33,914 bases of DNA from an uncultured Chromatiales bacterium (GTDB taxonomy: Bacteria; Pseudomonadota; Gammaproteobacteria; Steroidobacterales; BM003). A model generated the notes under the pieces. It did no database searches. It saw nothing but the letters and a program-made list of their open reading frames with translations, and was not told the DNA's origin. The position numbers and the translations under genes were made by a program. Shown one piece after another: positions 5,209 through 32,603 of the stretch (positions are counted from its first letter, which is position 1; each line of letters starts with the position of its first letter). The stretch is from assembly GCA_937128475.1 (NCBI GenBank), contig CAKZML010000009.1:1-33914 (forward strand), written 5' to 3'.

Positions 5209-5280
5209 GACAGATTTTTGCTGCGCTTGTGATGGATAATCCAGCCAGAACACAAAAAAGCCTTTGACAGGATATTGGGA

Positions 5281-6165
5281 ATGAGAACTGACTTCGTCAA
5301 CTATCAAGACTCATCGACCGATTCAATCTCACCCGTGGAGATTATCCCGGCCCCTGGCCTCAGGACAGGCTACCTGGCATTGACCCTGGGTTGTCTTTTG
5401 GCACTGCTGCTCGGCATCCCCCACACGGCGCGAGCCGAGGCCGGGGCAAAACAACCGTTTGTGATTACTGCCGACTACTGGTGCCCCTATACCTGCGCTG
5501 AGAACTCGCGAATGCAGGGCTTTGCCGTGGACATTACCAAGGAAATTTTCGAGGGTTACGGAGAAACGGTCGTCTACAAAGTCTTGCCTTTTAACCGTGC
5601 TTATTCGCAAATTGAAACGAGTAAATTTCAAATGGCAGTGGCCCTGGTGGACGACGAACAGAGATTACTGCTATTCAGCGAAGAAAGCCTGGCCGTGGAT
5701 AGGACTGCCATTGTAATGCGAAAAACCAAGGGCACTAACTACTCGGGTCCCGGCATGCTCGATGGACTGAAGGTGGGCACAGCCTCCGAGTACACTTATG
5801 ACGATGGTGGCCAACTGGATCAATACCTGGAGCAACGCAGAGTCGATCAAGATCGCATTATCGATATATTTAGCGACACTCCTATGAAATCGCTTTTGCC
5901 CATGCTGTTATCGGGTCGGATAGATGTTTTCCCTGAAAACATTGACGTGATCATGTACGTCGCAACCCGCGAAGGGGTATTGGATCAAATCAGCATTATT
6001 GATACCGGTCTCGGCAACACCCTGCACGGAGGATTTCCACGAACTGAGGAAGGCGCAGCCAACATGGCCAGGTTTGATGAGGGGATGCGGCGAATGCGTG
6101 CCTCAGGGCGTTTTGAGGAGATCATGTCGGCTTATCAGTTGGACAAGGAATCACGAGTTAAGTAA
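5281..6165 (+). CDS. Periplasmic solute-binding protein 1 (SBP_bac_3-like, WCPYTC type)
   Basis: Start 5281 is chosen over an in-frame TTG at 5275 because AGGA lies 8 nt before the ATG. The 294-aa product has an unusually long polar N-region (about 30 residues) before its hydrophobic signal segment, ending near TARAEA. The mature part begins ITADYWCPYTC and continues as a bilobed extracellular solute-binding fold (FAVDITKEIF, YKVLPFNRAY, LLSGRIDVF, then a TGLGN-LHGGF block). Paralogues follow at 8591 and 9686. No ABC permease or ATPase is nearby, so a sensory role is more likely than transport. The ligand is unknown. It is cut off from its paralogues by two minus-strand genes. Confidence 0.85.
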   Translation: MRTDFVNYQDSSTDSISPVEIIPAPGLRTGYLALTLGCLLALLLGIPHTARAEAGAKQPFVITADYWCPYTCAENSRMQGFAVDITKEIFEGYGETVVYKVLPFNRAYSQIETSKFQMAVALVDDEQRLLLFSEESLAVDRTAIVMRKTKGTNYSGPGMLDGLKVGTASEYTYDDGGQLDQYLEQRRVDQDRIIDIFSDTPMKSLLPMLLSGRIDVFPENIDVIMYVATREGVLDQISIIDTGLGNTLHGGFPRTEEGAANMARFDEGMRRMRASGRFEEIMSAYQLDKESRVK

Positions 6166-6203
6166 ATATCCACCCGCCTGGCTGCGCGAGTGTGGAAATC
6201 GAC

Positions 6204-6752
6204 TTACCAGGTAATGAGAAATCTACAAGTCTCGCCGCCATCCAGGCGCGACACATGACCTTGCTCCCAGTCCACTTTGCAGGTGGCGCTGATCGATGGC
6301 GGAAACTTCGCACACAGCGCACTGATAATTCCCAGGTCGAAATAGGGAGGATAGGGGTTGCGACATTCCATTATTGCCTGACGAGATTCGATAGCCGCCA
6401 GATCCAGGCGGTAATGCCCGATATCCCCACCCTTGTGATTGAGGTAATAGGCCTCATCCAGTGCTTCCATCGCCGAGCGAAAGTCTTTCACCGACGGGGG
6501 AAACAGGGCGTGATCGGGAATAGAGGTGCCAATGCTTCGTAGCGTGTAATCACCAAAGGCGTCAGTCACTTTCCCGAGAACGTTTAGCCATGACTGTTGC
6601 GGCACCCAGTCATCCGGCCCAACGCCACCTATACCCTCCTCGGTCATAAATTCTCTCACCCGGGCTTCATAGGCGGGCATGGCGTACACCACGACCAGAA
6701 CGGCCCTGCCAAGCACCTCCGCATTCGGTGAATACGCCTTATATTCGGCCAT
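6204..6752 (-). CDS. Unrecognised 182-aa cytoplasmic protein
   Basis: The start at 6752 is preferred because AGGGG lies 6 nt upstream; the longer open frame to 6896 adds 48 residues that look non-coding. There is no signal peptide or membrane segment. The N-terminus reads MAEYKAYSPNAEVLGRAVLV. The C-terminal half has ECRNPYPPYFDLG, then a final block with spaced cysteines (ALCAKF, ATCKVDW, ETCRFLITW). This ending is reminiscent of V4R/heme-NO-like ligand-binding domains that end in C-x(n)-W, but that link is weak. It lies downstream of the OYE-family gene on the same strand, 168 bp away, and converges with the first binding-protein gene. Confidence 0.7.
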   Translation of the reverse strand: MAEYKAYSPNAEVLGRAVLVVVYAMPAYEARVREFMTEEGIGGVGPDDWVPQQSWLNVLGKVTDAFGDYTLRSIGTSIPDHALFPPSVKDFRSAMEALDEAYYLNHKGGDIGHYRLDLAAIESRQAIMECRNPYPPYFDLGIISALCAKFPPSISATCKVDWEQGHVSRLDGGETCRFLITW

Positions 6753-6920
6753 CCATTTCCCCTGGCTCTTGAGATTCCATGAGTAGTGTTCCCCGGCATT
6801 ACGATGCTGCCGAAAACAATGCTCTATGCCAGATAATACATGAAAAGACCGTCGAGCCAGTTTGATTTGCGCCCGGCAAACCTTCTGGAGCGTCAAAACA
6901 TTCCAGGTGGCAGCACCTCC

Positions 6921-8153
6921 TTACCTGCGCCTCAACCACCGACGGTAGCGCCGGGTTTGTTGCAGCTTTCTCAGTTGATCCATCAACAGGGACATGCTGG
7001 GCGAAACACCCGGCATGGGTGGTTTGCCTACGCCCAATCTTCGCAACTGCCTCTTCACTATCGCCATGGTCCCAAGCGCCACCAGCGCCTTGTCCTTCCA
7101 CTTCACAGTCACTGGATTCACCCGGGCCTCCGGGTCTGATTTCCAGTCGTTCACCAGATGAGGGTTCATCGCCAGGGCCGTCGCGATGCCGACCATATCA
7201 ATACCCTGGTCGAGCACATGTTGGGCTACCGCCCTGCGCGTTATGCCGCCGGTGGTCATTACCGGCATTTTTGCCGCCCCGGCAATCCGCTGGGCGAAAT
7301 CGAGGAAATAGGCTTCACGAGCCAGCGTTTGACCATCTGTCGTGTGTCCCTGCATGGCCGGGCTTTCATAACTTCCACCGGACAACTCCACGAGGTCCAC
7401 ATGAAGGTGGTTCAGCATTTCCAGGACCCTGGTGGCATCTTTCTCGTCAAACCCACCCTTTTGAAAGTCCGCGGAATTCAGTTTCACGCCCACACAAAAT
7501 CCCGGGGCAACACTGGCTCTCACCGCCTGGATAATTTCCTTGAGGAACCGGGCCCGGTTTTCCAGGGAGCCACCCCATTTATCTTCGCGACGGTTGGACA
7601 AGGGGGACAAAAACTGCGAAATCAGGTAACCGTGGGCGGCATGAATCTGCACTCCGGTGAAACCCGCCTTCTCAGCCAGCGCCGCACTGGTGGCAAATCG
7701 CCCGATCGTTTCCATGATCTGGTCTTCGCTCATTGCAATCGGTTTGCCAAACATTCCCGAGTGTTTACCCAGGTCCAGCGGAATATCCGATGCAGACCAG
7801 ACATTTCCTTTCATCGTCGCGTAGACCTGGCGCCCCGGATGACTGAGTTGCATCCATGCCTGGGCACCCCCCGCTCGAATTGCCCTGGCCCAACGTTTGA
7901 ACGGTGCAATCACGGTCCCCTCTTCCAACACAACACCGCCCGGTCCGGTCATCGCCCTTCCGTCCACCATGACATTTCCGGTGATAATCAAGCCCGCGCC
8001 ACCCTGGGCCCACGAGGAATACAAATTCCACAAATCCCGTCCGGGCAACTGCCCCTCCACCGCCATATTTTCCTCCATGGCGGCCTTGGCAATTCTATTG
8101 GGAATAGATTGGCCATTCGGCAAATCAAGTGAAGCGAATAAATCCAGGCCCAT
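6921..8153 (-). CDS. NADH:flavin oxidoreductase, Old Yellow Enzyme family
   Basis: This 410-aa TIM-barrel flavoprotein begins MGLDLFASLDLPNG, as is usual for the family, with GAGLIITGNVMVD and QLSHPGRQ in the first third. The substrate-binding pair IHAAHGYL is followed by QFLSPLSNRREDKWGG, and the FMN phosphate site by MTTGGI near residue 300. Such enzymes reduce activated C=C bonds or 2-enoyl thioesters. It is the single-domain form, without the C-terminal FeS/NAD domains of 2,4-dienoyl-CoA reductase. GAGG 7-8 nt before the ATG supports the start. A short GC hairpin (6905-6918) abuts the stop but has no U tract. The substrate cannot be inferred. Confidence 0.9.
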   Translation of the reverse strand: MGLDLFASLDLPNGQSIPNRIAKAAMEENMAVEGQLPGRDLWNLYSSWAQGGAGLIITGNVMVDGRAMTGPGGVVLEEGTVIAPFKRWARAIRAGGAQAWMQLSHPGRQVYATMKGNVWSASDIPLDLGKHSGMFGKPIAMSEDQIMETIGRFATSAALAEKAGFTGVQIHAAHGYLISQFLSPLSNRREDKWGGSLENRARFLKEIIQAVRASVAPGFCVGVKLNSADFQKGGFDEKDATRVLEMLNHLHVDLVELSGGSYESPAMQGHTTDGQTLAREAYFLDFAQRIAGAAKMPVMTTGGITRRAVAQHVLDQGIDMVGIATALAMNPHLVNDWKSDPEARVNPVTVKWKDKALVALGTMAIVKRQLRRLGVGKPPMPGVSPSMSLLMDQLRKLQQTRRYRRWLRRR

Positions 8154-8248
8154 TGGTCGTCCTCAAGGAATCAAAATTAGACATTTAGTCCTCGTGTCAG
8201 CACCAGGTACTGAAAACGGGGAGCTAATGGTAACCCTCATGGATAAGA

Positions 8249-8275
8249 AACGGGAGCCAGGTTTCGCCTCCCGTT
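8249..8275 (-). other. Terminator-like hairpin in the OYE gene leader
   Basis: AACGGGAG and CTCCCGTT form a perfect 8-bp stem with an 11-nt loop. Read on the minus strand it is followed by TCTTATCC, so it could act as an attenuator about 95 nt before the OYE start, or be an operator. No minus-strand gene upstream would need it as a terminator. Confidence 0.35.
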
Positions 8276-8370
8276 GCATGGGAATTTCAATCTCCCCCAA
8301 ACAGCTAGCCGCCACCGACCCTGAACCGGTTTATCTTGGCAGACGAGTGAATTAGACGTAGATTAAGACT

Positions 8371-8397
8371 TTGATTGCCGTATTTTCTGATTATTAT
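8371..8397 (+). promoter_or_regulatory. Possible sigma70 promoter for binding-protein gene 2
   Basis: TTGATT (8371-8376) and TATTAT (8392-8397) are near-consensus -35 and -10 hexamers, but the spacer is only 15 nt. It lies in the 437-bp divergent gap 8154-8590, in an AT-rich stretch. Confidence 0.3.
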
Positions 8398-8414
8398 GTC
8401 TTGCTTGGGAGAAT

Positions 8415-8450
8415 GCTATACAAACGACCGGGATTGAGCCGGTTTGTAGC
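8415..8450. repeat. Imperfect inverted repeat upstream of binding-protein gene 2
   Basis: TACAAA, a CGA bulge and CCGG (left) pair with CCGG-TTTGTA (right) around a 7-nt centre, with GCTA and TAGC at the outer ends. It lies about 140 nt before the TTG start at 8591. It may be an operator or mRNA hairpin. The rest of 8451-8590 shows nothing clear. Confidence 0.35.
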
Positions 8451-8590
8451 ACTCTTGCCTCTACCAGCCAGAAATCGACTATTGCGCGAAATTTAGCCAG
8501 GGGATCAGAATTCTGTTACCAGGATCGATCAATAAATCAGGCAAACGAATTCGTTCAGGCCCACCGGGGCTGATCAGGGCGCTGTCCACC

Positions 8591-9463
8591 TTGCCGGGCT
8601 CCCGCCTGATAGTAAGCCTGCTGCTGATACCGGGCCTGATCAGCGGCGTTCAAGCCCAGGAGGCGACTGCTCCCTTACGTCTTGTCTCCGATCTGTGGTG
8701 TCCCTACACCTGTGAATCCGATGACGCCCAGCGCGGCATCCTGGTAGACATTGTCGAGGAAATTTTCTCGCAGCACGGTATTACGATCAGCTACCAGGTG
8801 ATTCCCTGGCAGCGTGCGAAACATTCGGTGGAGGCCGGACAGGCTGACGCTGCGCTCGGCCTTTCCAAAAATTATTCAGGCAGAATGCTAAGCAACACTG
8901 TCCCGCTGACTCATGACAGGACAGTCCTGATCTGGCGCAAGGGACAGGGCCAGCCCTACACCGGCACCAACGTGCTGGATGGCAAGAAAATTGGTATCGG
9001 GTACGCCATGATGTTCGATGAAGGTGGTGAACTTGATCAATACATCGAGTCGCGACTGGAAAAACACGAGCTAATTAGCGCCCTGTATATGAACAAGCAT
9101 ATTGAACATCTATTGAAGATGCTGCTGAGCGGCCGAATAGACGTCATAGTGGAGGACCTGGGTGCTGTGCAGTACCAGGTAAGCCAGGGAGGCCTGGATG
9201 AACTCAATGATGGTTTGAATTCATTTGATATTTCTGCGACGGGAAAAACCAGCGGTTTGTATGTGGGATTCACGCCAAACGCCAAGGGGCGGGAGAGCGC
9301 AAGATTTCTGGATGAAGGTCTGCTGCACATGAAGGACTCTGGGAGACTGGATGCCATCGTGAATTCTTACCGCAGTGCCGAACAGGTTGACCTCATACCT
9401 TTACCAGGGTCAGACCCGGGGCCAGGGGACCAAAGCAACACCCTCATCCGCCCTGACAAATAA
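8591..9463 (+). CDS. Periplasmic solute-binding protein 2 (WCPYTC type)
   Basis: This 290-aa paralogue starts at TTG 8591. No ATG or GTG is available in frame back to the stop at 8447, and the TTG begins a compact signal peptide (MPGSRLIVSLLLIPGL, cleaved near VQAQE). An AGGGCG about 10 nt upstream is a weak ribosome site. The mature chain begins LVSDLWCPYTC and has the same order of blocks as the other two (GILVDIVEEIF, YQVIPWQRA, LLSGRIDVI, YVGFTPNAKG). It carries a Pro/Gly/Asp-rich C-terminal tail of about 25 residues that the others lack. DNA identity with the neighbours is low, so the duplication is old. Confidence 0.85.
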   Translation: MPGSRLIVSLLLIPGLISGVQAQEATAPLRLVSDLWCPYTCESDDAQRGILVDIVEEIFSQHGITISYQVIPWQRAKHSVEAGQADAALGLSKNYSGRMLSNTVPLTHDRTVLIWRKGQGQPYTGTNVLDGKKIGIGYAMMFDEGGELDQYIESRLEKHELISALYMNKHIEHLLKMLLSGRIDVIVEDLGAVQYQVSQGGLDELNDGLNSFDISATGKTSGLYVGFTPNAKGRESARFLDEGLLHMKDSGRLDAIVNSYRSAEQVDLIPLPGSDPGPGDQSNTLIRPDK

Positions 9464-9482
9464 TCACCTAACATCACCAGGA

Positions 9483-9504
9483 GAAGATAAGTCTTCACTT
9501 TTTT
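9483..9504 (+). terminator. Weak terminator after binding-protein gene 2
   Basis: GAAGA-TAAG-TCTTC followed by AC and six Ts lies 20 nt after the stop. The stem is only 5 bp, so it is probably leaky. In the rest of the 222-bp gap I see only a small TACCTG/CAGGTA repeat. Confidence 0.3.
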
Positions 9505-9685
9505 ATTGATCAGCCCAGCCAACCCAGCTCGATACCTGCCCTGCTGACGGGACCTGGTACAGGTAGACTCAGAATAGACCCTGATGGCCCGAGTTTTTGC
9601 AGAGGTTAATAAGCTGGCTCTCTAACTGGAATCACTGAGACAGCAATCTACATTGCGAAGACAGTCATAAACCCTGAAGAAAATA

Positions 9686-10519
9686 ATGAAACTGAAACTC
9701 TTTTTAATAGGCATGTCTTTGCTTTTGATATCCGCTCACTCGCCGCAAGCGGCAAGCGACGGGCAAAGCGCCTTGGAAACCAGCATATCCATTACCGCCG
9801 AAATCTGGTGCCCCTACGCCTGCACTCCCGAATCCGAGAATCCGGGAATCCTGGTTGAAGTTGTCCGGGAAATTTTTCGCCAGCAAGGCATTGAGGTTGA
9901 ATACGGACTGATGCCCTGGCGGCGCGCACTGATGGAAACCGAAAAAGGCACCTCAGATCTAGTCCTCGGGGTAGTAACGGGAAATCGTGGAAGCCTTTTA
10001 CTGGATAAACGCGGGATGGGGGTTGATGAGACCATTGTCGTTGTACGCAAGGACTCTGACTTTGATTACCAGGGGCCAGAAAGCCTCAATTCCATGCGGC
10101 TGGGAGTAATAGCGAATTACACCTATGACAGCAATGGAGTACTGGACAGTTATCTGAAGGAGCGACGCCGGTTACATGACAGAATCGTAGTTATCTACAG
10201 AGACGAACCGATTAAGTCACTTGCAAACATGCTGTCTGGATACCGAATTGATGCGTTCCTTGAAAATCGTCAGGTTACTCTCTATGAGGGCAAGAGGATG
10301 AATTTTGGGGACAAAATCCGGATTATCAGTACTGGCCTGGGAGATACTGTCCATGTCGGTTTCACCCCAAATGACAGGGGCCGTAGAAACCTCGATATTT
10401 ATAACCGTGGGCTTACGAGATTACTGGAATCCGGCAAAGTCGATGAGATCGTCAAAAAATACGGTCTGGATGGAGTCCCCGCGGAGATCAAAGTAAAAGT
10501 TAATAACCCCTCTAAATAA
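9686..10519 (+). CDS. Periplasmic solute-binding protein 3 (WCPYAC type)
   Basis: This 277-aa paralogue has a typical signal peptide (MKLKLFLIGMSLLLISA, cleaved near QAASD). The mature part has ISITAEIWCPYAC, GILVEVVREIF, YGLMPWRRA and a TGLGDTVHVGFTPN block. It is closer to protein 1 than to protein 2 in the central region (compare ANYTYDSNG and ASEYTYDDGG, then DEPIKSLANML and DTPMKSLLPML). The gene ends 26 nt before the histidine kinase start, so the two are probably cotranscribed. That links this family to signalling rather than transport. Confidence 0.87.
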   Translation: MKLKLFLIGMSLLLISAHSPQAASDGQSALETSISITAEIWCPYACTPESENPGILVEVVREIFRQQGIEVEYGLMPWRRALMETEKGTSDLVLGVVTGNRGSLLLDKRGMGVDETIVVVRKDSDFDYQGPESLNSMRLGVIANYTYDSNGVLDSYLKERRRLHDRIVVIYRDEPIKSLANMLSGYRIDAFLENRQVTLYEGKRMNFGDKIRIISTGLGDTVHVGFTPNDRGRRNLDIYNRGLTRLLESGKVDEIVKKYGLDGVPAEIKVKVNNPSK

Positions 10520-10545: not shown

Positions 10546-13209
10546 ATGAAAAAAAGAAGCATCACATCCAGAATAAGTATTCTGATCATCATCTTCCTTG
10601 GAGTGGGTGTTTTCATTGCATTCCTGGCTAACGGTTGGGCAAGCGTCAAACAATTCAACGCAGCCTATGAGAAACGGTTGCAACTGGAAACCGAGGTATT
10701 GAGCCAAAGCCTTGCCGGGCCTCTTTGGTCGTACAACTACGATGCAGCGAAGACCATCTGCCGGGCATACGCAGCCCACACGGACGTTGTCCTGGTAAAA
10801 GTTACCGCAACGAGCACAAATGACCCGGTGTACAAGTTGTCCAAAGAAACCTCGATTGAGGTGTTCAAGGCAACCAAGGAAATTGTTTACGATGGAGAGG
10901 TCATAGGCGCCGTTGAAATCGGACTAAGCACGGAGACCCTGAGCAAGAACCTGAAACAGTCATTCTTTTACACTGTGTCACTCATGTTTGTTATTGGCCT
11001 TATTATCCTCGCCGGCATTCGATTTTCCCTGACACGATTAATTGAAAAGCCCATTGCCACTCTCGCAAATTGGGCGCAACAAATTGCCCAGGGCAACTAT
11101 CAAGCCGCAGCCGAAGGGTCAATGAACACCAAGGAACTTGCCCCAGTTGCGCGCCAGATCAAATACATGTCTGGGGAAATCGAGTCCCGAGAAAAGAAAC
11201 TCAACGACCACATTGCCCTGGAGGAAACTCTCTCCAGAATCCAGCAAGAGTGTATTGCATTCCGAAAATGGGATCAGGCCTATCGAGGGTTGCTCAAGGC
11301 AGCCATGAGCACGACCGGCAGTCCGTCTGGCTTGATCGCTGAAATGTCGATTTCGAATCCGGGCAAGGTCAGAGCGGTTCGAGCCTTCTTTAACATCCCC
11401 ACTGGCGGTCGCGGCGGAAACGTGCTCTCGCTCATGTGCGAACCGGCGATAGCATCCCCGGTTCCCACTATCGCGAACGATATACTGCACTTGCCCGAGA
11501 CGATCCGAAAAATTTCAGAAACCTCACCTATCTCGTCTTACGTTGCCATCCCTCTTCGGCGGGGCGGGGAAACCCTCGGAGTCCTGGTGCTGACCAATCG
11601 CAGTGGCGGTTACGATCAGCGCCTCCTTGATTACCTTGAGCCCCTTATACGTGGCGCGAGCAACATGATTGCAGCGATTCGGGATGTAAGGGCCCTGCGG
11701 CAAAGTGAGGATATGAATACCGCCATCCTTAATGGAGCGTTGACCGGGATTGTCACGGCGACAATTGACGGAGCCATTCTGGACCTGAACCCTTTCGCGC
11801 TAAAAATGTTTCGTTGTAGCAGACAGGAAATAATTAACAAGAATGCCGTCGACGTTTTCATGTCGGAGAGTTACCGGGCGCAAACCCGAACTGCCCTTGC
11901 CGCCATCAAAGCGAACGGAACTAGTGAAATACTTGGCAAGACTCTCAATATCGAGGTCTGCCGCCTCGACGGAAGTGTGTTTCCCGCCGAGCTTATCCTG
12001 ACTCTGCATCAGAACAGATACCTACTTACTGGCGTGATGCGGGACGTATCCGAGGAGAAAAATGCGGAGCGCGCCCTCAGGCGAGCCCAAAAGATGGAGG
12101 CAATCGGTCAGTTAACCGGAGGAATTGCCCACGACTTCACAAATATTCTTGGCATCATCATTGGCAACCTGGAGTTCCTGATGCGCCCGGAATTAGTCGG
12201 AGGCAACCCCAAAGAACACCTGGACATTGCGTACAAGGCAGCGATGCGTGCAACAGCCCTGACAAAGCAGCTATTGAACTTTGCCAGGACCAAACCAGCC
12301 GATGCCAAACCAACAGACGTAAACATGATAATCAGCGGCATGAACAACCTGCTGGCGCGCTCGGTCACTCAGCAAATTTCCCTGCGTTACATCCTTGCAG
12401 AAGACCTGTGGAAGGCCAATATTGATCCTGGCGACCTTGAGGACAGTCTTCTGAATCTCGCAATCAATGCCAGGGATGCTATGGAAGGCGGCGGCGAATT
12501 GACTATCACCACTGAGAATCAGGTCATCGATGCAAATAGGGTTGGTTCTAATCGCGCCGTCCCAAAAGGACAATATGCAACACTTTCAATTCGAGACACC
12601 GGTTCAGGCATAAGCCAGGCAGACCAGGAAAAAATATTCGAACCGTTTTTCTCAACCAAGGACCGCGGGAAAGGCACGGGTCTGGGTCTGGCAATGGTAT
12701 TCGCATTCGTAGAGCGCTCTAAGGGCTACATCAAGGTAAATTCAAAGATAAATGAGGGTGCTGAATTCAAAATATTTCTGCCTAGACACAGATCAGAGGC
12801 CAACGAGAAACCTGACAGCCACACAACCCCATTCCCTGAGTTTCCCGAGGGAACAGAATGGGTCCTTGCAGTAGATGATGAAGTCGACCTCACGAATCTC
12901 GCGAAAGCAAATTTAAGCAGCTTGGGCTACTCTGTTTTGATAGCCAACAATGCTGCGCAAGCCCTCAAGATAATCGATTCTGACCAGCAGATTGACATAT
13001 TATTTACGGACACTGTAATGCCTGGCTCATTGAATGGTATTGAGCTCGCAGAAGAAGCTCTAAAGCGAAGACCTGAGCTTAAGGTGTTGATAACCACAGG
13101 ATTTACAAATATAAAAGGCAAGAGACCGGGTGGCCAAAAAGTATTGAACAAGCCTTACACCAAGGCAGAACTGGCTGACCGAATTCGCAGAGCACTGGAC
13201 TCCCATTAA
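10546..13209 (+). CDS. Membrane hybrid sensor histidine kinase (periplasmic sensor, HAMP, GAF-like, PAS, HisKA, HATPase, REC)
   Basis: The 887-aa protein has membrane helices at about 9-29 and 140-160, enclosing a periplasmic domain of about 110 residues with the GPLWSYNYD motif (58-66) common in Cache/PAS-like sensors. A HAMP-like linker follows (about 160-215), then a GAF-like region (about 225-380), a PAS (about 385-500) and HisKA with the phosphoacceptor H529 in GGIAHDFTN. The ATPase boxes are complete: [10 protein letters not shown] (637-646), [14 protein letters not shown] and GKGTGLGLA. The C-terminal receiver has DD777-778, D822 and K869. All catalytic residues are present. It lies immediately after the third binding-protein gene and 45 nt before the REC-EAL gene. 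No HPt domain is visible in the window, so the route of any phosphorelay is unclear. Confidence 0.93.
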
Positions 13210-13254: not shown

Positions 13255-14448
13255 TTGAACGAGACAAGCAGACCCAATCTTCTGATTATTGATGACGAAA
13301 CAGAGATGGGTAAATACATCAGTCTGGTCGCAGAAGAAACTGGATTTTCGGCGACTTCCATTGATGACACGAGCAAGTTCGAATCGGTTTATGACCGAGA
13401 TATTTCGGTAATCATCGTGGACATGTTCATGCCGGGAAGGGATGGCGTTGAGATTCTCCGCTTTCTTGCTGAAGACCGGTTCCGCGGACACATTGTTGTC
13501 ATCAGTGGCTTCGACTCCAGCGTGCTGCATTCCGCAATGGAACTGGCCAATGCACATGGACTGAAAATACTGGGCGCATTATCAAAACCCATACTATACA
13601 ACGACATACAGAGATTACTGCTTAAGGCATTAGACGATTTCTCATCCGACGATCCCACCCTGGCGGGTGAAATCATCCTGCCGACCCGCGAAGATTTCAT
13701 CATGGGCCTCGAGCGACTGGAATTTGAGCCCTATATGCAACCCCAGATCGATATCAAGACCGGGCGCCTGCTGGGGGTCGAAGCACTGGTACGATGGATT
13801 CACCCTACCCTTGGTATACAAACACCCGACATCATAATCCCCATGGCGGAGAACGATGGCCTGATGGATGAATTGACCTATCAGATGCTGGAAAAGACGG
13901 TCAACTGGATCAAAATCTGGAAGGATGCCGGCCTGAGCCTTCGGGCCAGCGTTAACATTTCCGCCTCGACAATTATCGACCTATCACTTCCGGAACTGGT
14001 TGATTCCTATCTGCGAGCCAAGAAACTTCCTCCCGGACACCTTGCCCTCGAGGTGACCGAACAGACATTGATGGGGCAACTGTCAACCTCGCTGGACATC
14101 CTCACCAGGCTCAGGCTGAAGAACATAGAATTATCAATCGACGACTTCGGCACCGGTCACTCGTCATTGATTCAGTTGTACCGGGCACCATTCTCCGAAA
14201 TCAAGATGGATCGTTCTTTCGTCTCAAAGGCAACTGAGCAAAAAGAAGCCCGGGCGATCGTGGAAATGACGGTTGCTCTAGCCCATAAGCTGAACATGAA
14301 GACAGTTGCCGAGGGTGTTGAAGACTCGGCTACTATGGATTTGCTGAGGGAGCTGGGATGTGATGTTGCCCAGGGCTATTACATCGCCCGCCCAATGCCA
14401 CCGGAAGAACTCCTGGACTGGGAACGGGCGCGCTCCGGCACAGCATAA
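13255..14448 (+). CDS. Response regulator with EAL c-di-GMP phosphodiesterase output
   Basis: The start is TTG at 13255, supported by AAGGGGG 7 nt upstream. The 397-aa product has an N-terminal receiver with the acidic pair D13-D14, phosphoacceptor D56 (IIVDMFMPGRDG), S84 and K111. An EAL domain follows from about residue 147. The active-site set is intact: EAL at 176-178, N in SVNIS, E in LEVTEQ, the DDFGTG loop, K in EIKMDRSF, E in VAEGVED, and Q in AQGYYIARPM. It should hydrolyse c-di-GMP to pGpG under control of phosphorylation. The kinase just upstream is the obvious partner. There is no GGDEF domain. Confidence 0.95.
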   Translation: MNETSRPNLLIIDDETEMGKYISLVAEETGFSATSIDDTSKFESVYDRDISVIIVDMFMPGRDGVEILRFLAEDRFRGHIVVISGFDSSVLHSAMELANAHGLKILGALSKPILYNDIQRLLLKALDDFSSDDPTLAGEIILPTREDFIMGLERLEFEPYMQPQIDIKTGRLLGVEALVRWIHPTLGIQTPDIIIPMAENDGLMDELTYQMLEKTVNWIKIWKDAGLSLRASVNISASTIIDLSLPELVDSYLRAKKLPPGHLALEVTEQTLMGQLSTSLDILTRLRLKNIELSIDDFGTGHSSLIQLYRAPFSEIKMDRSFVSKATEQKEARAIVEMTVALAHKLNMKTVAEGVEDSATMDLLRELGCDVAQGYYIARPMPPEELLDWERARSGTA

Positions 14449-15242: not shown

Positions 15243-16892
15243 CTAAGGCTGGACTCCTCCATTGAACGGATTATCGGTCCAGCCCAGGGCGTTCCAGTCG
15301 ACTTGACCGGCATCGTGGCAGTCTGAACAGCCCGATCCACCACCGAAGCCAAGAGCCATCTCTTTTGGAGCGACTTCGTGATTCACCTGGAGGTACATCT
15401 CGGTGGGCACGAACTCATATGCACCGCTATACGTCTGACCGGTGTACGCTGCGCCGTCCTGCAGTGCCAAGTCCCAATCGTACTTTGCCCAATACGGGTT
15501 TGGTCCACCCTTCATACCGAACAGATGGGGAACCAGCATGGTGTTGTTGTTGGCATCTGCCACCTGGTTACCAATCATCTTCTTGAACGGATAAATCATG
15601 GCATCAAGATCTGTGTAATCCGCAACCGGGGCAGACATTACTACCGGGGTCGACACATACTGATCATTAACATTCATCATGATTTTTTGTGTCATGCCAT
15701 TGTGGAAACGAAGTTCGGGCCGCACATTCAAGCCCCAGACAAAAGTGCCTTTCTTCTTGTCATAGGTGGGTTTGCCAGTGATGGGATCAACAGGAATCGG
15801 ATCGATATCCTGACCGGCGTCTTCCCAGTACCATTCCATCTTGGTAGGCAGTTTCCTGGCGATAGCCGGAACGTGACATACCTGGCAGGCCAGTCTCTGG
15901 TGATTGGCAACCAGGTCCTGGGCCGCCGTTCCGGCATGAATGCTGGCACGATCACCGTGGCAGTCAGCGCATTGTTTCATCGCGCCTTCTTCAACCGAAT
16001 GGAAAGGCATACCACCGATACCGTGAGACAGCATCTCACCGTCAGGACCGCGTTTCACGCCATGGCAGGCTACGCAATCCAAATTGGCGCCGTCGGTACC
16101 CATGTGAACGTCGTAATCCCTGGTCGTTGCCACCAAGTCTGTTGACAGATCACCGTGCTTCACATTGTCACCACCACCGGCAGCAGCGTGACAGGCAAGG
16201 CAGTTTTGCCGGACGGGGGATCCAGAATTGTCCGCCACGCTTTGTGCCACCACTTGAAGGTCTACCGTAGGATCTGGTAACCCAGCTGTTGTGAGACCCT
16301 TCTTATAGGTGCCTGACTGGTCATGACAAACCAGGCAGTCCACGTTCTTCGGGTTTGAGAAGTCGTATGTCGCATCTGCCAGGCCGTAACCGGCATGGCA
16401 CTGGGAACAACGTCCTTCATTGGTCGGGACCGCAATACAGAAGTTATTAATAAAATCTACTTTGCCGTGAATTTCAGCTTCATAGCCTTCAACGTTTGAT
16501 GCAACGCCACTCCACGTAAAATGACCGGTGGTTATGAAGTCGTCACCAACCTTGCCGTGGCAATCAAGACAACTTGTTGTTCCTTCATAAGTATTGTCTG
16601 TGAAATAGACTTTATGTAGTGTCTCGGGGTCGCTTAACGGCGGAACCAAGACCACACAATCATTCACATCAACGACGCCATCTCCATTGATATCCTCATC
16701 CGGCAGATCCGCCACGCCATTCTGGTTGGTATCCCAGCAACTTAAGCCGTTACTACCATCTGCCCCGGCAGAACCTGCAGCACCATCGGACCCATCGGAG
16801 CCATCACTACCGCACGCAACCAGCCCGGCAGCAAGCAACCCCACTAGCAATATTCTAAATTTTGGGAATCTTCCTAACATTGTATTTTCCAT
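15243..16892 (-). CDS. Octaheme c-type cytochrome lipoprotein (OTR/multiheme family)
   Basis: Eight CxxCH heme sites are visible: CLDCH, CSQCH, CLVCH, CLACH, CVACH, CADCH, CQVCH and CSDCH. The last is near the C-terminus after a gap of about 170 residues. The N-terminus is a lipoprotein signal (GRFPKFRILLV, lipobox LVAC), then a GSDGSDG collagen-like linker. Next is an EF-hand/dockerin-like pair (DTNQNGVAD and DINGDGVVD) before the first heme. The arrangement resembles octaheme tetrathionate-reductase-family cytochromes, which reduce sulfur or nitrogen oxyanions; the substrate here is not proven. Starts at 16901, 16892 and 16880 are all possible. The frame is open to 17009, but that would bury the signal peptide. 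The divergent neighbours are sulfur-handling genes. Confidence 0.88.
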   Translation of the reverse strand: MENTMLGRFPKFRILLVGLLAAGLVACGSDGSDGSDGAAGSAGADGSNGLSCWDTNQNGVADLPDEDINGDGVVDVNDCVVLVPPLSDPETLHKVYFTDNTYEGTTSCLDCHGKVGDDFITTGHFTWSGVASNVEGYEAEIHGKVDFINNFCIAVPTNEGRCSQCHAGYGLADATYDFSNPKNVDCLVCHDQSGTYKKGLTTAGLPDPTVDLQVVAQSVADNSGSPVRQNCLACHAAAGGGDNVKHGDLSTDLVATTRDYDVHMGTDGANLDCVACHGVKRGPDGEMLSHGIGGMPFHSVEEGAMKQCADCHGDRASIHAGTAAQDLVANHQRLACQVCHVPAIARKLPTKMEWYWEDAGQDIDPIPVDPITGKPTYDKKKGTFVWGLNVRPELRFHNGMTQKIMMNVNDQYVSTPVVMSAPVADYTDLDAMIYPFKKMIGNQVADANNNTMLVPHLFGMKGGPNPYWAKYDWDLALQDGAAYTGQTYSGAYEFVPTEMYLQVNHEVAPKEMALGFGGGSGCSDCHDAGQVDWNALGWTDNPFNGGVQP

Positions 16893-16917
16893 AACAAACA
16901 TCCATTTCGACAGTGGA

Positions 16918-16954
16918 AAACAAAAAAAAAGGACGCCTGCGATTGCAGGCGTCC
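16918..16954 (-). terminator. Strong intrinsic terminator inside the cytochrome leader
   Basis: On the minus strand GGACGCCTGC-AATC-GCAGGCGTCC is a perfect 10-bp stem followed by nine Us, G and four more Us. It lies directly before the cytochrome start candidates (16901, 16892, 16880) with no minus-strand gene upstream. It is therefore probably an attenuator or the end of a small RNA. Confidence 0.85.
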
Positions 16955-17387
16955 CATCTTGAATTCTAGGCGCATCTTTAGGGCGCATCCGTGCAGGGGC
17001 AGAAGACATCCTGTGTAAATCCTTTTACCGAGGTCCGAGCCATTTCTTAGCTTGCCCTAATTTAGACCTTTCTAATTTCGTGATGCAATCCGTACTTTCC
17101 CTAGTGCGCCACCGAAGCTCCATTGGATCGATTCCAGCTAGCAAATCACTCACACCCATCCTGACCACCCATTGCATTCGCAACAGGTCAGCCAAAACCC
17201 CCTTTTCCCTTCACACACCAGCCTGGGCGGCGCCCTCGAAACATTCGCCTCTTGTCAGAACAGACTTGATATGAAGAGCATTAATCCGCCATTCTGTTCG
17301 TCCTGAATGATCAAAGCCGGTGGCGCGCTGACCATCAGGCAAGTACATTGAAAAGCCTTGGCGAAATTCTGTGGAGACGGACAAGCA
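16955..17387. promoter_or_regulatory. Divergent intergenic region and cytochrome leader
   Basis: This region of over 400 bp separates the cytochrome (minus) from dsrE2 (plus) and must hold both promoters. On the minus strand GUAAA-AGGA-UUUAC (17028-17015) is a small hairpin. It is followed by three related stretches (GATGCGCCC, GATGCGCCT and GATGGGACGCC) leading into the terminator. I could not find a convincing FNR, sigma54, GEMM or other known riboswitch signature. Confidence 0.4.
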
Positions 17388-24235: not shown

Positions 24236-26302
24236 TCAGCTTGGGATCCCGGGTTCCTCCAGAGGCACCCAATGAGCCTTCTGAACCAGCGTAAGAACCT
24301 CGTAAGATGCAACGTTCTCATCATCCTGGTTAGTGGCCTGGACATCCCAGTGGGCTTCGCCATATTCAGCGGTTTCCCGGTTTACCTTTTGCTTGCAGGT
24401 AAACGCTACCTTGATCCTGTCACCCGGATACACCGGCTGATTGAATCGCAAATTCTCCAGGCCATAATTGGCCAGCACCGGGCCCGGATCAGGATCTACA
24501 AACAAGCCTGCCGCCGCCGAAACCAGGAAATATCCGTGGGCCACCCGTCCATCAAAAAACGGATTGGCTGCCGCTGCCACCTCATCCATGTGGGCATAGA
24601 ACGTGTCACCACTGAGCTCGGCGAATGCCTCTATGTCCTCGAGAGTAATTTCCCGCTCTTCGGTCAACAGCGAATCACCGACACACAAGTCCTCGAAATG
24701 CTTGCGGAACGGATGTATTGCCTCGACCCGGCGTGTTCCACCGGGCAGGTAACGGTCACACACCACGCCCAGGGTATCCGGCGATCCCTGCAGTGCCGTT
24801 CTTTGCATGTGATGCATCACAGCCCGTATGCCACCCTGCTCTTCACCGCCGCCTGCACGACCGGGTCCGCCATGAACCAGGTGAGGAAGGGGTGAACCAT
24901 GACCGGTGGATTCCCCGGCGCAATGCCGGTTCAGCAGGACCAGGCGTCCGTGCAATGCCGCCGTACCCAGGACAAACTCTTTGACCACCTGGTCATCAGC
25001 GCTGCACAAGGAGCCCGCCAGGCTGCCTCCGCCCAGGCGAGCCAGTTCAATTGCATGTGCCAGGTCTTTGTATGGCAGCAAGGAACACACCGGACCAAAG
25101 GCTTCCACCGAGTGCACAGGATGCTTGGGATGCGGATCATCCACTCTGAGCAGCACCGGGGACATGAAGGCGCCGACCTGGGCGTCAGCGTCCACCAGCT
25201 CAAGGGTTTCCCGCTGGTAAACAATCCGGGACTCCCTGGCCAGTTCGGCGACCCGCTGCAAGACTTCATCCCGCTGACCCAGGCTGGCCAGCGCACCCAT
25301 ATGCACTTCCTTGCTTGAAGGCAGACCGATACGCAATCCGTCCAGCTTGGCGCTCAACGCATCCTGCACCGCGTCCATGCATGCCTCAGGCACCAGGGCC
25401 CGTCGGATGGCGGTACATTTCTGCCCCGCCTTACTGGTCATTTCCCGAAAGACCTCACCAATAAACAAGTCGAACTCAGGGGTACCGGGTATCGCATCGG
25501 GCCCCAGCACCGAACAGTTCAGAGAATCAGTTTCGGCATTCAAGCGCACCGAATTGCCGATGATCGCCGGATGGGTTCGCAATTTCATTGCGGTGGCCGC
25601 AGACCCGGTAAAGCCCACCACGTCCTGGCAGCCCACGTGGTCAAGCAAATCGCCTGCCGGACCGCACAACAACTGCACCGACCCCACAGGCAGGATTTCC
25701 GACTCCACGATCCGCCTCACCATCTGCTCGGTCAGGTAGGCCGTGCTACTGGCAGGCTTCACCAGCACAGGCATACCGGCCAGGATGGCCGGAGCCAGTT
25801 TTTCCAACATTCCCCAGCAGGGAAAATTGTAGGCGTTGATCTGAATGGCAACGCCTTCCAGCGGCACGCAAATATGCTGACCAACAAAGGTGCCGCCCCG
25901 GGCGATGAGTTCCGGTGCCCCTTCGACGAGGAACCGGTCATTCGGAAGTTCCCGGCGACCCTTGCTTGAGAAAACAAACAAGGTGGATATGCCCCCGTCA
26001 ACGTCTACCCAGGTATCGGACTTGGTTGCACCGGTCAGGTACGACAATTCATAGAATTCTTTCTTGAACTCCATAAGATGCTTGGCCAGCGCCTTGAGAC
26101 TCTCGGCACGCTGGTGAAATGTCATGGCGCGAAGCGCAGGACCCGCCTTGCTACGGCCGTATTCCAGCATCGCTGCCCTGTCCACATCGGCGGCGCCGAT
26201 GGTGGCGACAGGCTCACCGTTTACCGCGCTGCGCAGCTGGGGTGCAGAGGCCTCTGCCGGCACCCATTTTCCTGCGGCATAACTTTCCAGTATTCGGGTC
26301 AT
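24236..26302 (-). CDS. paaZ: PaaZ: oxepin-CoA hydrolase / 3-oxo-5,6-dehydrosuberyl-CoA semialdehyde dehydrogenase
   Basis: The 688-aa bifunctional protein has an N-terminal aldehyde dehydrogenase domain and a C-terminal MaoC-like hydratase, as in E. coli PaaZ (681 aa). The dehydrogenase residues E257 (NAETDSLN) and C296 (KAGQKCTAIRR) align within one residue of E. coli E256 and C295. The MaoC domain has FAELSGDTFYAHMD and RVAHGYFLVS. It opens the oxepin-CoA ring made by PaaABCE/PaaG and oxidises the resulting aldehyde. It is last in the E1-E2-aminotransferase-paaZ operon, 29 nt after the aminotransferase gene, and apart from paaCDE. That separates it from the usual paa order. Confidence 0.95.
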   Translation of the reverse strand: MTRILESYAAGKWVPAEASAPQLRSAVNGEPVATIGAADVDRAAMLEYGRSKAGPALRAMTFHQRAESLKALAKHLMEFKKEFYELSYLTGATKSDTWVDVDGGISTLFVFSSKGRRELPNDRFLVEGAPELIARGGTFVGQHICVPLEGVAIQINAYNFPCWGMLEKLAPAILAGMPVLVKPASSTAYLTEQMVRRIVESEILPVGSVQLLCGPAGDLLDHVGCQDVVGFTGSAATAMKLRTHPAIIGNSVRLNAETDSLNCSVLGPDAIPGTPEFDLFIGEVFREMTSKAGQKCTAIRRALVPEACMDAVQDALSAKLDGLRIGLPSSKEVHMGALASLGQRDEVLQRVAELARESRIVYQRETLELVDADAQVGAFMSPVLLRVDDPHPKHPVHSVEAFGPVCSLLPYKDLAHAIELARLGGGSLAGSLCSADDQVVKEFVLGTAALHGRLVLLNRHCAGESTGHGSPLPHLVHGGPGRAGGGEEQGGIRAVMHHMQRTALQGSPDTLGVVCDRYLPGGTRRVEAIHPFRKHFEDLCVGDSLLTEEREITLEDIEAFAELSGDTFYAHMDEVAAAANPFFDGRVAHGYFLVSAAAGLFVDPDPGPVLANYGLENLRFNQPVYPGDRIKVAFTCKQKVNRETAEYGEAHWDVQATNQDDENVASYEVLTLVQKAHWVPLEEPGIPS

Positions 26303-26331
26303 GGTCTGTACCTGTTTCGTGTTCTGTGAAT

Positions 26332-27438
26332 TTAGCTAGCGCTGTCCTGCCACTGGGCCAGGGCGGAAATAACCGCCCGGTTATCCTCCTCCAGACCCAC
26401 TGATAAACGCAGGCTCCTGGGCAATCCATAGTTGGCTACCGGACGCAGGATCAGTCCCTTGCCACGCAGGAACGCATCCGCCGACTGGCATCGGGCGGCG
26501 TCATCAAAATGCATAAGCAGGAAGTTGCCGATACTCGGTGTTACCTCCAGACCAAGCTTGCGTAACTCACCGTCCAGCCAGGGCAGCCATTTATCGTTGT
26601 GCTGCCTGGCGGCGCGGGTATGACCGGTGTCAGACAACGCGGCGATGGCGGCCACCTGGCCGGCGGTAGAGACATTGAACACACCGCGCACCCTGTGCAG
26701 GGCCATGGCCACTTCCCGTGGCGCCCTGGCCCAACCCACTCTCAGGGAGGCCAGGCCAAAAATCTTGGAGAAGGTATGCAGCACGACGGTGTTACCGTCC
26801 TCGGCTTCAATCAGTTCCTCACCGAAGCTGTATTCATCCTGGTCGCAATATTCGGAGTAGGCAGCATCCACCACCAGCAAAACATGCTCGGGTAATTCAC
26901 GGCGCAATCGGTGTAGCTCGGCGCGCGGTATCCAGGTACCTGTTGGGTTGTTGGGGTTAGCGAGAAAAACCACCTTGGTGCGAGGACTGACCTTTTCGAG
27001 TATCGCATCCACATCAGCGGTCAGGTTCTTCTCAGGCACTCTCACCGGGACGCCGCCGGCGGCCATGGTGGAGATCAGGTAACAAACAAAGGCGTACTCG
27101 GTAAAGATGACCTCGTCCCCCGGCGATACGTAGGCCCGGCAAACGCAGTCAATGAGTTGCTCCGAACCGGTGCCGCACACCACCTGGTCAACATTCAGTC
27201 CATGGGCCTGGGCCAGGGCCTGGCGCAACGCTATCGCTGCGCCGTCAGGATAAAGCTCAAGCTTTCCCGCCTGGTCGGAGTAGGCCCGGATGGCAGCCGG
27301 ACTGGCCCCCAGGGGCGACTCGTTGGAAGATAATTTCGCGGGTGAATCGAAACCCGGGATCTTCGCCTCGCCGGCGATATAGGGCACGATTTTCATCACA
27401 TGGGATTTGGGTTCGACCAAGGGCATTTCCTGCTCCAT
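26332..27438 (-). CDS. HisC-like class I/II aminotransferase, probable aromatic amino acid transaminase
   Basis: This 368-aa PLP enzyme shows NESPLG near residue 40, the phosphate-binding GTGSEQLID, ANPNNPTGTW (160-169), DAAYSEYC (191-198), and the Schiff-base lysine K225 in HTFSKIFGLASLRVGW. The sequence class is histidinol-phosphate aminotransferase, but no other his gene is nearby. Relatives of HisC often act on phenylalanine or tyrosine. Its position between the oxoacid dehydrogenase E2 and paaZ suggests it makes phenylpyruvate (or another 2-oxoacid) for that complex. A second in-frame ATG at 27426 has GGAG 8 nt upstream and may be the true start. Confidence 0.88.
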   Translation of the reverse strand: MEQEMPLVEPKSHVMKIVPYIAGEAKIPGFDSPAKLSSNESPLGASPAAIRAYSDQAGKLELYPDGAAIALRQALAQAHGLNVDQVVCGTGSEQLIDCVCRAYVSPGDEVIFTEYAFVCYLISTMAAGGVPVRVPEKNLTADVDAILEKVSPRTKVVFLANPNNPTGTWIPRAELHRLRRELPEHVLLVVDAAYSEYCDQDEYSFGEELIEAEDGNTVVLHTFSKIFGLASLRVGWARAPREVAMALHRVRGVFNVSTAGQVAAIAALSDTGHTRAARQHNDKWLPWLDGELRKLGLEVTPSIGNFLLMHFDDAARCQSADAFLRGKGLILRPVANYGLPRSLRLSVGLEEDNRAVISALAQWQDSAS

Positions 27439-27467
27439 CAGTAAATGTTTCGGGATCCGAGAGTAAC

Positions 27468-28709
27468 CTAGCCGGGAAGCTTGCTACCGCTTTCCAATGA
27501 CCAGTTCTCCAGCGTACTAACCAGTGCATCCAGGAAGCTGTTCGCCTGGAAGCCATCAAGTACCCGGTGGTCCAGGGTCAGGGTAACGTAGCACATGGGC
27601 CGGACCTGGATACTCTCCTGTCCATCCACCTCACGCACGATCACCCGCTTCTCCAGTTTACCCACTCCGAGAATGGCAGCCTGGGGCTGGTTAATGACTA
27701 TCGGGGAGGCAATCAGGCTTCCGCTGACACCGTGATTGGAAATCGTAAACGTGCCGCCCTGCACATCCGCCGGCAACAATGCACCATCCCGTGCCTTGCC
27801 GGTCAGACGTTCCAGTTCGCGAGCGACCTGGTACAGATCCATGTCCTGGGTATTTCGGATCACCGGAACCATCAGGCCACGCTCACCCAGCGAGGTTCCC
27901 ACGCCGATATTCACATCATCAAAGACTTCCAGCTTGTCATCGTGCCAGCGGCTGTTCACAACCGGCACCTTGCGCATGGCCAGTGCACTGGCGGCTACAA
28001 AATACGCCGTCAGGGTAAGTCGCTCACCCCGGCTCGCCAGTTCCGGCGCCCAGCGCGCCTTGTGGGCAAGAATGGCGGACAGGTCGGCTTCAAACACCGT
28101 GGTGACATGAGGTGCGGTTTGCACGCTGTGTTGCATGTGGGCAGCGATTCGCTTGCGCATGGGATCGTGAGGAACGAAGTGACTGCGAATCGCAGATGAC
28201 TCACCACGAGTGATCTTTGGCCCGGGCACTGCCACCCCATTTTTCAGACAGGTTTCGATGTCACGGGCCGTCACCCGGCCACCGCGACCCGTTCCGATAA
28301 CTTGCTCCAGGCAGAGATTGTGCTCGCTCAACATCCTGCGTACTGCCGGAGACGTCTTCCCCTGCTGAGACCCGGAGTCCCGGGGGGCGTCGGCCTGCAA
28401 CGCAGCTACCGGGGCTTCAGGCGCTGTCGCTGGGGCAGTAGCGGGTTTATCAACACTCGCCTGACTGGAATCCAGCATTGCCACCAACTCACCGGGGACA
28501 AGCTCATCGCCAGCCTGCTTGAGCAGACTCGCCACTACACCATCAGCCGGTGCGGACAATTCCACTACAACCTTGTCCGTCTCCAGTTCGGCAATAGGCT
28601 CGTATGCCTTGATCGCATCACCGGGCTGTTTAAGCCATCCCTGCAGTACGTATCGTGTGCCTTCCTGCTGGTCTTCAGGCACCCTGATTTCAATGTTCTG
28701 GGTCACCAT
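27468..28709 (-). CDS. Branched-chain-type 2-oxoacid dehydrogenase E2 (dihydrolipoyl acyltransferase)
   Basis: The 413-aa protein begins with one lipoyl domain, with lipoylated K46 in ETDKVVVE. A Pro/Ala-rich linker follows, then a peripheral subunit-binding domain (about 120-155: SPAVRRMLSEHNL, GTGRGGRVTARDIE). Last is the acyltransferase domain, with the catalytic DHRVLDG near the C-terminus (H381 and D385). It transfers the acyl group from E1 to CoA. Its ATG abuts the E1 stop codon exactly (TGAATG), implying translational coupling. No E3 gene is in the window, so E3 must be supplied from elsewhere. Confidence 0.95.
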   Translation of the reverse strand: MVTQNIEIRVPEDQQEGTRYVLQGWLKQPGDAIKAYEPIAELETDKVVVELSAPADGVVASLLKQAGDELVPGELVAMLDSSQASVDKPATAPATAPEAPVAALQADAPRDSGSQQGKTSPAVRRMLSEHNLCLEQVIGTGRGGRVTARDIETCLKNGVAVPGPKITRGESSAIRSHFVPHDPMRKRIAAHMQHSVQTAPHVTTVFEADLSAILAHKARWAPELASRGERLTLTAYFVAASALAMRKVPVVNSRWHDDKLEVFDDVNIGVGTSLGERGLMVPVIRNTQDMDLYQVARELERLTGKARDGALLPADVQGGTFTISNHGVSGSLIASPIVINQPQAAILGVGKLEKRVIVREVDGQESIQVRPMCYVTLTLDHRVLDGFQANSFLDALVSTLENWSLESGSKLPG

Positions 28710-30821: not shown

Positions 30822-30910
30822 AGGTCTTCCTCCCTCTTCCGTCTAGGCGGAGTGTTCGCAGGCAATCTTAGGCGTAGAGAATAGAATATCCCTTTCCAGC
30901 GGGAATTTAG

Positions 30911-30946
30911 TTGCTCAATTGACAGCTATAAGCAGTATTTGAGCAA
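30911..30946. promoter_or_regulatory. Inverted-repeat operator between E1 and the Lrp/AsnC gene
   Basis: TTGCTCAA (30911-30918) and TTGAGCAA (30939-30946) form a perfect 8-bp inverted repeat with centres 28 bp apart, within the 169-bp divergent intergenic region. Paired half-sites spaced at near-helical turns suit an Lrp-family oligomer acting on both promoters. Clear -35/-10 pairs were not found. Confidence 0.6.
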
Positions 30947-30990
30947 TTTCCTTCCATTTTTAGATGATTTATGGAATATTGTTTCCTATT

Positions 30991-31473
30991 ATGAACGTAA
31001 AATTATCAAGACAAGACGTGGCCATACTCCGGCACCTGCAAGAAGACGGGCGAATTTCCAACCGTGACCTGGCGAACCAGGTTTCACTGTCGCCGTCGCC
31101 ATGCTGGCGCAGGGTGCGCGCACTGGAAGAACAACAGGTGATTCGCGGGTACACCGCGTTACTTGATCCCGAAAAGTTAGGGCTGAGAGTCGTGGCTTTC
31201 GCCCATGTGTCGCTGGTGGATCATCACCCGCCCACGGTGGCCCGCTTCGATCAAAAGATCAGTGAAGCGCCGGAAGTGCTGGAGTGCTTCATGACCAGTG
31301 GCGACCATGACTACATGCTGAAGGTGCTTACCCGGGACATGTCCAGCTACCAGGATTTTCTGAGTGAGAAACTCTTGAGTCTGGATTGCGTCAGAACGGT
31401 CAACACCAGCTTTGCACTGAAGCAGAAAAAACTCTCCACCCGACTGCCCCTGCAGCAGAGCATGGAAGACTAG
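30991..31473 (+). CDS. Lrp/AsnC-family transcriptional regulator
   Basis: From ATG 30991 the product has 160 aa (the ATG at 30964 would add nine hydrophobic residues atypical of the family). The N-terminal winged helix reads LSRQDVAILRHLQEDGRIS, NRDLANQVSLSPSPCWRRV and a recognition-helix end at EEQQVIRGY. The C-terminal ligand-binding RAM/AsnC domain includes SGDHDYMLKVL. Such regulators sense amino acids. Divergence from the E1 operon, with the shared inverted repeat, makes control of that operon and of itself likely; the effector is probably the amino acid degraded. Both candidate starts have poor ribosome sites. Confidence 0.93.
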   Translation: MNVKLSRQDVAILRHLQEDGRISNRDLANQVSLSPSPCWRRVRALEEQQVIRGYTALLDPEKLGLRVVAFAHVSLVDHHPPTVARFDQKISEAPEVLECFMTSGDHDYMLKVLTRDMSSYQDFLSEKLLSLDCVRTVNTSFALKQKKLSTRLPLQQSMED

Positions 31474-31494
31474 CCCGTCAGGCCTGCCAACCCG

Positions 31495-32568: not shown

Positions 32569-32603
32569 GCCCTGGTGGTTCTCCGTGGTGAGCGCGTCCG
32601 GCC

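Follow-up and report, generated by a model that had tools for sequence, protein, structure and literature searches.

The window analysed here is a stretch of 33,914 nucleotides from an uncultured Chromatiales bacterium (positions 1 to 33,914 of contig CAKZML010000009.1, assembly GCA_937128475.1). It carries three genes for substrate-binding proteins (SBPs) of the SBP_bac_3 family, each with the cysteine motif WCPY(T/A)C, and the third of these genes is followed by genes for a sensor kinase and a response regulator predicted to act on cyclic di-GMP (c-di-GMP). The features concerned are as follows:

5275..6165, + strand: SBP1 (P0001), SBP_bac_3 family, with an N-terminal hydrophobic signal-like stretch (judged by eye)
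5479..5496, + strand: WCPYTC of SBP1 (sequence and translation)
8591..9463, + strand: SBP2 (P0002), SBP_bac_3 family, start codon uncertain
8696..8713, + strand: WCPYTC of SBP2 (sequence and translation)
9686..10519, + strand: SBP3 (P0003), SBP_bac_3 family, 277 aa (AlphaFold2 model)
9806..9823, + strand: WCPYAC of SBP3, residues 41-46 (sequence, translation and AlphaFold2 model)
10546..13209, + strand: hybrid sensor histidine kinase, 887 aa (Pfam)
13255..14448, + strand: REC-EAL response regulator, predicted c-di-GMP phosphodiesterase, 397 aa (Pfam)

All three binding proteins scored above the curated cut-off of Pfam SBP_bac_3 (PF00497; 42.3, 34.5 and 38.3 bits for SBP1, SBP2 and SBP3, respectively, against 26.4), and an NCBIfam scan of the three gave only matches far below cut-off. 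The start codon of SBP1 is uncertain (TTG at 5275, ATG at 5281, or further on). SBP2 and SBP3 are 36% and 38% identical to SBP1, respectively, WCPY is the longest stretch of invariant columns in the alignment of the three, and in the source genome this alignment matched only SBP1–3 themselves (E 0.001). A preliminary description of this DNA had reported the motif as common to all three proteins, with three residues between the cysteines (CX3C), and both statements agree with the sequence and the translations. The span it gave begins at exactly the right base, 5479, but its end, 9830, overshoots the last Cys codon by seven bases.

The AlphaFold2 model of SBP3 (mean predicted local distance difference test score 88, predicted template modelling score 0.81, ten-residue means of 88–97 over residues 31–260) showed, on comparison with solved structures, the two-lobed fold of periplasmic binding proteins. 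The nearest solved folds were 4c0r (Z 21.7), 3h7m (Z 21.0) and 1lst (LAO, Z 19.8), and the fold matches consisted of amino-acid SBPs plus the sensor domain of a kinase (3h7m). Rather than ending a β-strand, as had been described, the motif (residues 41–46) is placed by the model in the loop between strand 1 and helix 1, past a strand at residues 33–38. The proposed location of the pair near the ligand cleft was supported by a HMMER alignment, in which WCPY stands opposite FAPF of GlnP SBD2 (6h30), and we take the Phe of this FAPF to be the equivalent of Tyr14 of LAO. Tyr14 and Phe52 of LAO stack on either side of its ligand (PMC3102756), and in CdgH the ligand is bound by a residue of the strand 1–helix 1 loop (PMC5431781). 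Because of the pairing with FAPF and of these two precedents, the Trp preceding the first cysteine (Cys1) is probably a ligand-stacking residue.

To survey homologues, we used a profile (A2) made from 15 homologues from which all sequence through the second cysteine (Cys2) had been deleted, so that it was blind to the motif. The profile was run on the phylum (398 genomes, 47 of them, including the source genome, matching at 1e-20), on the class (369 genomes, six matching at 1e-28, source genome included), on one family (146 genomes, 57 matching at 1e-30), on another family (99 genomes, 18 matching) and on another class (48 genomes, six matching), sets that overlap, some genomes occurring more than once. 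Among the 151 distinct proteins obtained with A2 only, those of the window included, 87 had both cysteines, 64 had neither and none had a single one. When all loci were taken, including those from motif-based searches (n = 178), the counts were 105, 72 and 1, and a first-round set of 98 proteins gave 51, 47 and 0. Loci L004–L013 had been found with motif-containing queries and L014–L029 by a scan for the WCPY pattern, and both groups are omitted from the 151 proteins; L006 was under the cut-off for the set of 98 and is counted among the 178. This protein is the sole discordant one, with WPPYAC, the second cysteine only and an extra cysteine four residues on (ACETGC), possibly a shifted pair within the same loop. 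The cysteines were kept where other motif residues differ (WCPINC, WCPHNC, WCPVNC, FCPYNC, SCPSNC, YCPFTC, LCPLVC and WCPQIC), and in close relatives lacking the pair both were exchanged (WFPMNG, WFPMNA, WYPHNG, WYPING, WAPYTS, WPPYTS and DYPFTG), coordinated losses being recurrent (for example WFPMNG, WYPHNG and WPPYTS). The CX3C signature is real and beyond chance. Conservation in a broad alignment, proposed beforehand as a check on the motif, was thus found in both the 151 and the 178 proteins; the claim that the pair is invariant while much else has diverged holds inside the pair-bearing clade but not in nested groups that have lost both cysteines together. A high-scoring group of proteins (L133, L139–L144 and L031; 215–232 bits) represents natural double replacements, with Phe or Tyr for Cys1 and Gly or Ala for Cys2.

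Of 58 other genomes searched for relatives, four matched at E 1e-5, the best of them at 2.4e-14; two genomes of the same genus and one of the same family had no match. The closest named relative is L014, from a metagenome-assembled genome (MAG) of the Woeseiaceae, and the window is therefore likely to derive from this group as well. According to the record titles, named pair-bearers include members of Vibrio, Marinobacter, Bermanella, Bacteriovorax-type bacteria and Silvanigrellales, the predatory lineages among them belonging to what we take to be the phylum Bdellovibrionota, and the pair is also found on plasmids of Salipiger and Pseudoalteromonas. A pattern scan of viral_contigs matched 87 stretches, none of which encodes a relative, and sequence searches of the PDB yielded no CPxxC relative among the matches listed.

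Trees were built on the region after the motif. Presence of the pair required five changes on the tree of 98 proteins. On the tree of 178, for which a simpler model was used and the tool warned of long branches, Cys1 required six changes and Cys2 seven, with three changes forced by starred branches, and Cys2 followed Cys1 in all three independent contrasts. On this tree, all 105 pair-bearers lay on one side of a branch with support 83, together with 14 proteins lacking the pair. SBP1–3 and the two SBPs of L014 clustered with a support of 99.

The cysteine content of the relatives points to the state of the pair. When counting started six residues ahead of the motif, the total was two in 71, four in 26, three in six and five in two of the 105 pair-bearers, and was therefore even in 97; in the first set it was even in 46 of 51 pair-bearers, while the 47 pairless proteins had none (26), one (11) or two (10). 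A cysteine at the position of SBP3 residue 117 (model strand 112–121) was present in 20 of the 98 proteins, all with the motif pair, and a partner near residues 215/216 (model strand 211–226) in 19 of these 20 and in none of the other 78. This second coupled pair probably bridges two strands that, to judge from the family fold, form the hinge of the SBP. Its carriers include L016, L019, L020, L022–L024, L026 and L029. DsbB-family (E 3.5e-43) and DsbA-family genes are encoded in the source genome. Since the motif pair evolves in an all-or-none manner and the cysteine totals are mostly even, a disulfide between the two motif cysteines is much the likeliest state. The pair had been proposed to be either a disulfide that reports redox state or a metal or thiol ligand site. 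The disulfide fits the all-or-none pattern, the even totals and the Dsb genes, and the reporting of redox state found no support. A thioredoxin-like active site was rejected: the spacing is CX3C and not the CXXC of thioredoxins, and the fold matches are SBPs.

Binding of a soft metal (Cu, Zn or Hg) by the cysteine pair, or of a thiol ligand through a mixed disulfide, either of which would then be sensed, has a parallel in Sco-type proteins, where copper is bound via CX3C. The top VIA match of the model is the glutathione-binding GshT (Z 21.7), a position that it shares with all rows within one Z unit. No His or Met column reached 40% in the 51 pair-bearers, which disfavours a metal site, and the second coupled pair and the mostly even totals indicate disulfides instead. 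In addition, the 20 other frames scanned in the window gave no match to a metal-resistance family (two of these frames match no family), and we regard such a site as scarcely probable. The top rank of GshT was rejected as evidence for a thiol ligand, the Z scores being tied.

The column of the carboxylate-binding Arg77 of LAO, an equivalence taken from the AncQR alignment, was Ala in 33 and Arg in two of the 51 pair-bearers of the first set, compared with Arg in 29 of the 47 pairless proteins. As this column is mostly Ala, most of the pair-bearing subfamily may bind another kind of ligand. In the window proteins, where the column lies in a gappy stretch, it is Arg in SBP3, Gln in SBP1 and Ser in SBP2, and in the last two an Arg follows at a distance of one or two residues.

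The genes for SBP3 (end 10519), the hybrid kinase and the REC-EAL protein follow each other head to tail in an apparent operon opened by SBP3. The kinase has GAF, PAS, HisKA, HATPase_c and Response_reg domains over cut-off and a HAMP match below it, and in the REC-EAL protein the usual EAL catalytic motifs look intact by eye. Only 26 nucleotides separate the SBP3 gene from the kinase gene, the arrangement looked for in a sensory SBP: the gene of a kinase activated by an SBP often lies next to the corresponding sbp gene (PMC11113362).

For the relatives, genes were called as the longest open reading frame (the SBP frame being imposed for L008, L101, L105, L112, L113 and L116) and a kinase gene on the same strand within 300 bases was counted as adjacent, leaving out the window itself. 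The order in L014 is SBP-SBP-kinase-REC-EAL, with 55% identity to the window kinase and 65% to the REC-EAL protein. In L104, L108, L111 and L113 the SBP adjoins kinases and a REC-HD protein (L113 is interrupted by the contig end), in L008 of Salipiger it is followed by a hybrid kinase, and in five loci titled Bacteriovorax or Bacteriovoracaceae, on one of which Pfam was run, the kinase precedes the SBP. Overall, a same-strand kinase was adjacent to 13 of 48 pair-bearers and to two of 44 pairless proteins (Fisher p 0.004). In L106 (6451-8787), divergently oriented genes encode a CHASE5 hybrid histidine kinase and an SBP with WCPYNC. In L101, the SBP, of the WCPINC/WCPVNC group, lies between genes for an FGGY-family sugar kinase and a PhzF-family protein. 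L105 and L107 probably have this same setting, as judged from a tally of three for each family, and it differs from the kinase operons.

These neighbourhoods bear on the question of whether the proteins are ordinary importer subunits of amino-acid-type ABC systems that carry a disulfide particular to their lineage and take no part in signalling. SBP_bac_3 is the family of polar amino-acid SBPs, the neighbours of many relatives are unrelated to signalling, and two of 48 same-strand neighbours of pair-bearers match ABC_tran. On the other hand, 16 of these 48 neighbours match HATPase_c, no permease family is present in the 25 of 43 neighbour families listed for pair-bearers, and the 20 other scanned frames of the window matched neither an ABC permease nor an ABC ATPase, a search confined to the window and not extended to permeases elsewhere in the genome. 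We consider an importer role unlikely.

The coupling of a pair-bearing SBP with kinase and REC-EAL proteins in the window would also suit a redox switch, in which reversible oxidation of the cysteines alters ligand affinity or kinase docking and periplasmic redox state is reported into c-di-GMP. Periplasmic disulfides tune c-di-GMP enzymes in HmsC/HmsD and in the CSS domain of PdeC (PMC8846402), and genes for a multihaem cytochrome c and a flavin mononucleotide (FMN) oxidoreductase lie nearby, though no link to them is shown. Yet 35 of 48 pair-bearing relatives keep the pair with no same-strand kinase neighbour, so its conservation is not linked to an adjacent kinase; strict CX3C conservation in the oxidising periplasm suits a permanent bond equally well; and none of the 20 other window frames scanned matched a thiol-disulfide oxidoreductase family. 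Such a switch is thus quite improbable. We find it harder still to credit that the proteins form a distinct CX3C sensory clade in which reduction loosens the loop and alters ligand binding, with three paralogous SBPs serving one kinase and the kinase/c-di-GMP relay reading both a metabolite and periplasmic redox state.

Our preferred explanation, to which we assign a probability of roughly 0.58, is that a structural disulfide gives its shape to the ligand loop in binding proteins that are used here as sensors feeding the kinase and, through it, the REC-EAL protein. The motif, the fold family, the all-or-none pair, the gene order and the same operon in a second Woeseiaceae MAG are observed; the bond itself, the ligand contact, the contact between SBP and kinase and the output are predicted. 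SBP1–3 would be secreted proteins of SBP_bac_3 fold acting as sensors and not as importer subunits. After export, the Dsb pathway would join Cys1 and Cys2 of W-C-P-Y-x-C by an intramolecular disulfide in the strand 1–helix 1 loop, and this bond would fix the loop such that the Trp ring, located by alignment in the lobe-1 half of the cleft, is presented to the ligand. As the gene order suggests, the neighbouring hybrid kinase may sense, through its periplasmic part, the closure of SBP3 on its ligand, and SBP1 and SBP2 are perhaps alternative inputs to this kinase. Judging from the domains, phosphate from the kinase would pass to the REC-EAL protein and alter c-di-GMP breakdown.

Several observations weigh against this explanation. 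Within the window, the genes for SBP1 and SBP2 are not next to that for the kinase, and opposite-strand genes lie between the two. The association with kinases weakens when only the motif-blind subset is taken (six of 29 versus two of 39, p 0.065); opposite-strand kinases adjoin one pair-bearer and three pairless proteins, giving 14 of 48 versus five of 44 on either strand; and the 35 relatives with no same-strand kinase neighbour, one of them the first SBP of the L014 operon, form the majority. The neighbours of pairless proteins (n = 38) include three GGDEF proteins and two methyl-accepting chemotaxis proteins, so ties to signalling also occur where the pair is absent. The loci from Vibrio, Marinobacter and Bermanella have no adjacent kinase, and so the family as a whole need not be sensory. 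With respect to the pair itself, eight of the 105 pair-bearers have an odd number of cysteines, three contrasts are too few for significance (median p 0.25) and come from the tree with the simpler model and the long-branch warning, the 98-protein tree gives only one contrast, and co-inheritance explains much of the all-or-none pattern.

Several known systems can be compared with that of the window. The window proteins share family, fold and an aromatic residue in the strand 1–helix 1 loop with the polar amino-acid binders LAO, HisJ and GlnBP, from which they differ by the CX3C pair in this loop and by the lack of a transporter family in the scanned frames beside them; in 33 of 51 pair-bearing relatives, moreover, the column of the LAO-type carboxylate Arg is Ala. 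MbaA of Vibrio cholerae is a single membrane enzyme. In the polyamine sensing of this organism, a periplasmic binding protein, NspS, is tied to c-di-GMP turnover as in the window, but its partner is MbaA itself, whereas the window has a predicted kinase and a separate REC-EAL protein. In AgtS and AruS of Pseudomonas aeruginosa, the sbp gene likewise lies beside the kinase gene (PMC11113362); the window differs in having three SBPs near one kinase and REC-EAL as the next gene. SBP_bac_3-type domains are known as sensors in c-di-GMP receptors (PMC8846402), and CdgH (PMC5431781), RmcA, BvgS-type kinases (PMC8846402) and 3h7m all have such a sensor domain, which is fused to the receptor in these cases and a separate secreted protein in the window. 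The periplasmic cysteine pairs of HmsC/HmsD and PdeC are also linked to c-di-GMP; these belong to other protein families in which a redox response has been shown, whereas such a response would be hypothetical in the window. Hence, SBPs that serve kinases and SBP_bac_3 domains in c-di-GMP receptors are already known. In the literature searched, we found no account of the CX3C signature, of the way in which its cysteines are kept or lost together or of an operon with the order SBP-kinase-REC-EAL, and no paper that, by its title, treats the WCPY motif in an SBP family.

Elsewhere in the window, a 230-aa frame with no Pfam match (6204-6896, - strand; E 0.001) lies between SBP1 and the FMN oxidoreductase gene, which is on the same strand as this frame, and the multihaem cytochrome c (15243-17009, - strand) shows matches to Cytochrome_cB, Mtr-like and C7 domains. 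The region 24236-33884 contains phenylacetate-type degradation genes (matches to an Aldedh-MaoC fusion, PaaA/PaaC, PaaD-type and reductase-type proteins), along with genes for an aminotransferase, for E1/E2 oxoacid dehydrogenase proteins and for a regulator of the Lrp/AsnC type.

For the family, CP-x-x-C after strand 1 provides a simple sequence mark of a subfamily that annotation merges with transporters; two pair-bearers encoded on plasmids, for example, are annotated as 'transporter substrate-binding domain-containing protein'. Pair-bearing SBPs encoded beside kinases and REC-EAL or REC-HD proteins point to inputs of c-di-GMP signalling of which the literature searched gave no description and which can be tested with single proteins.

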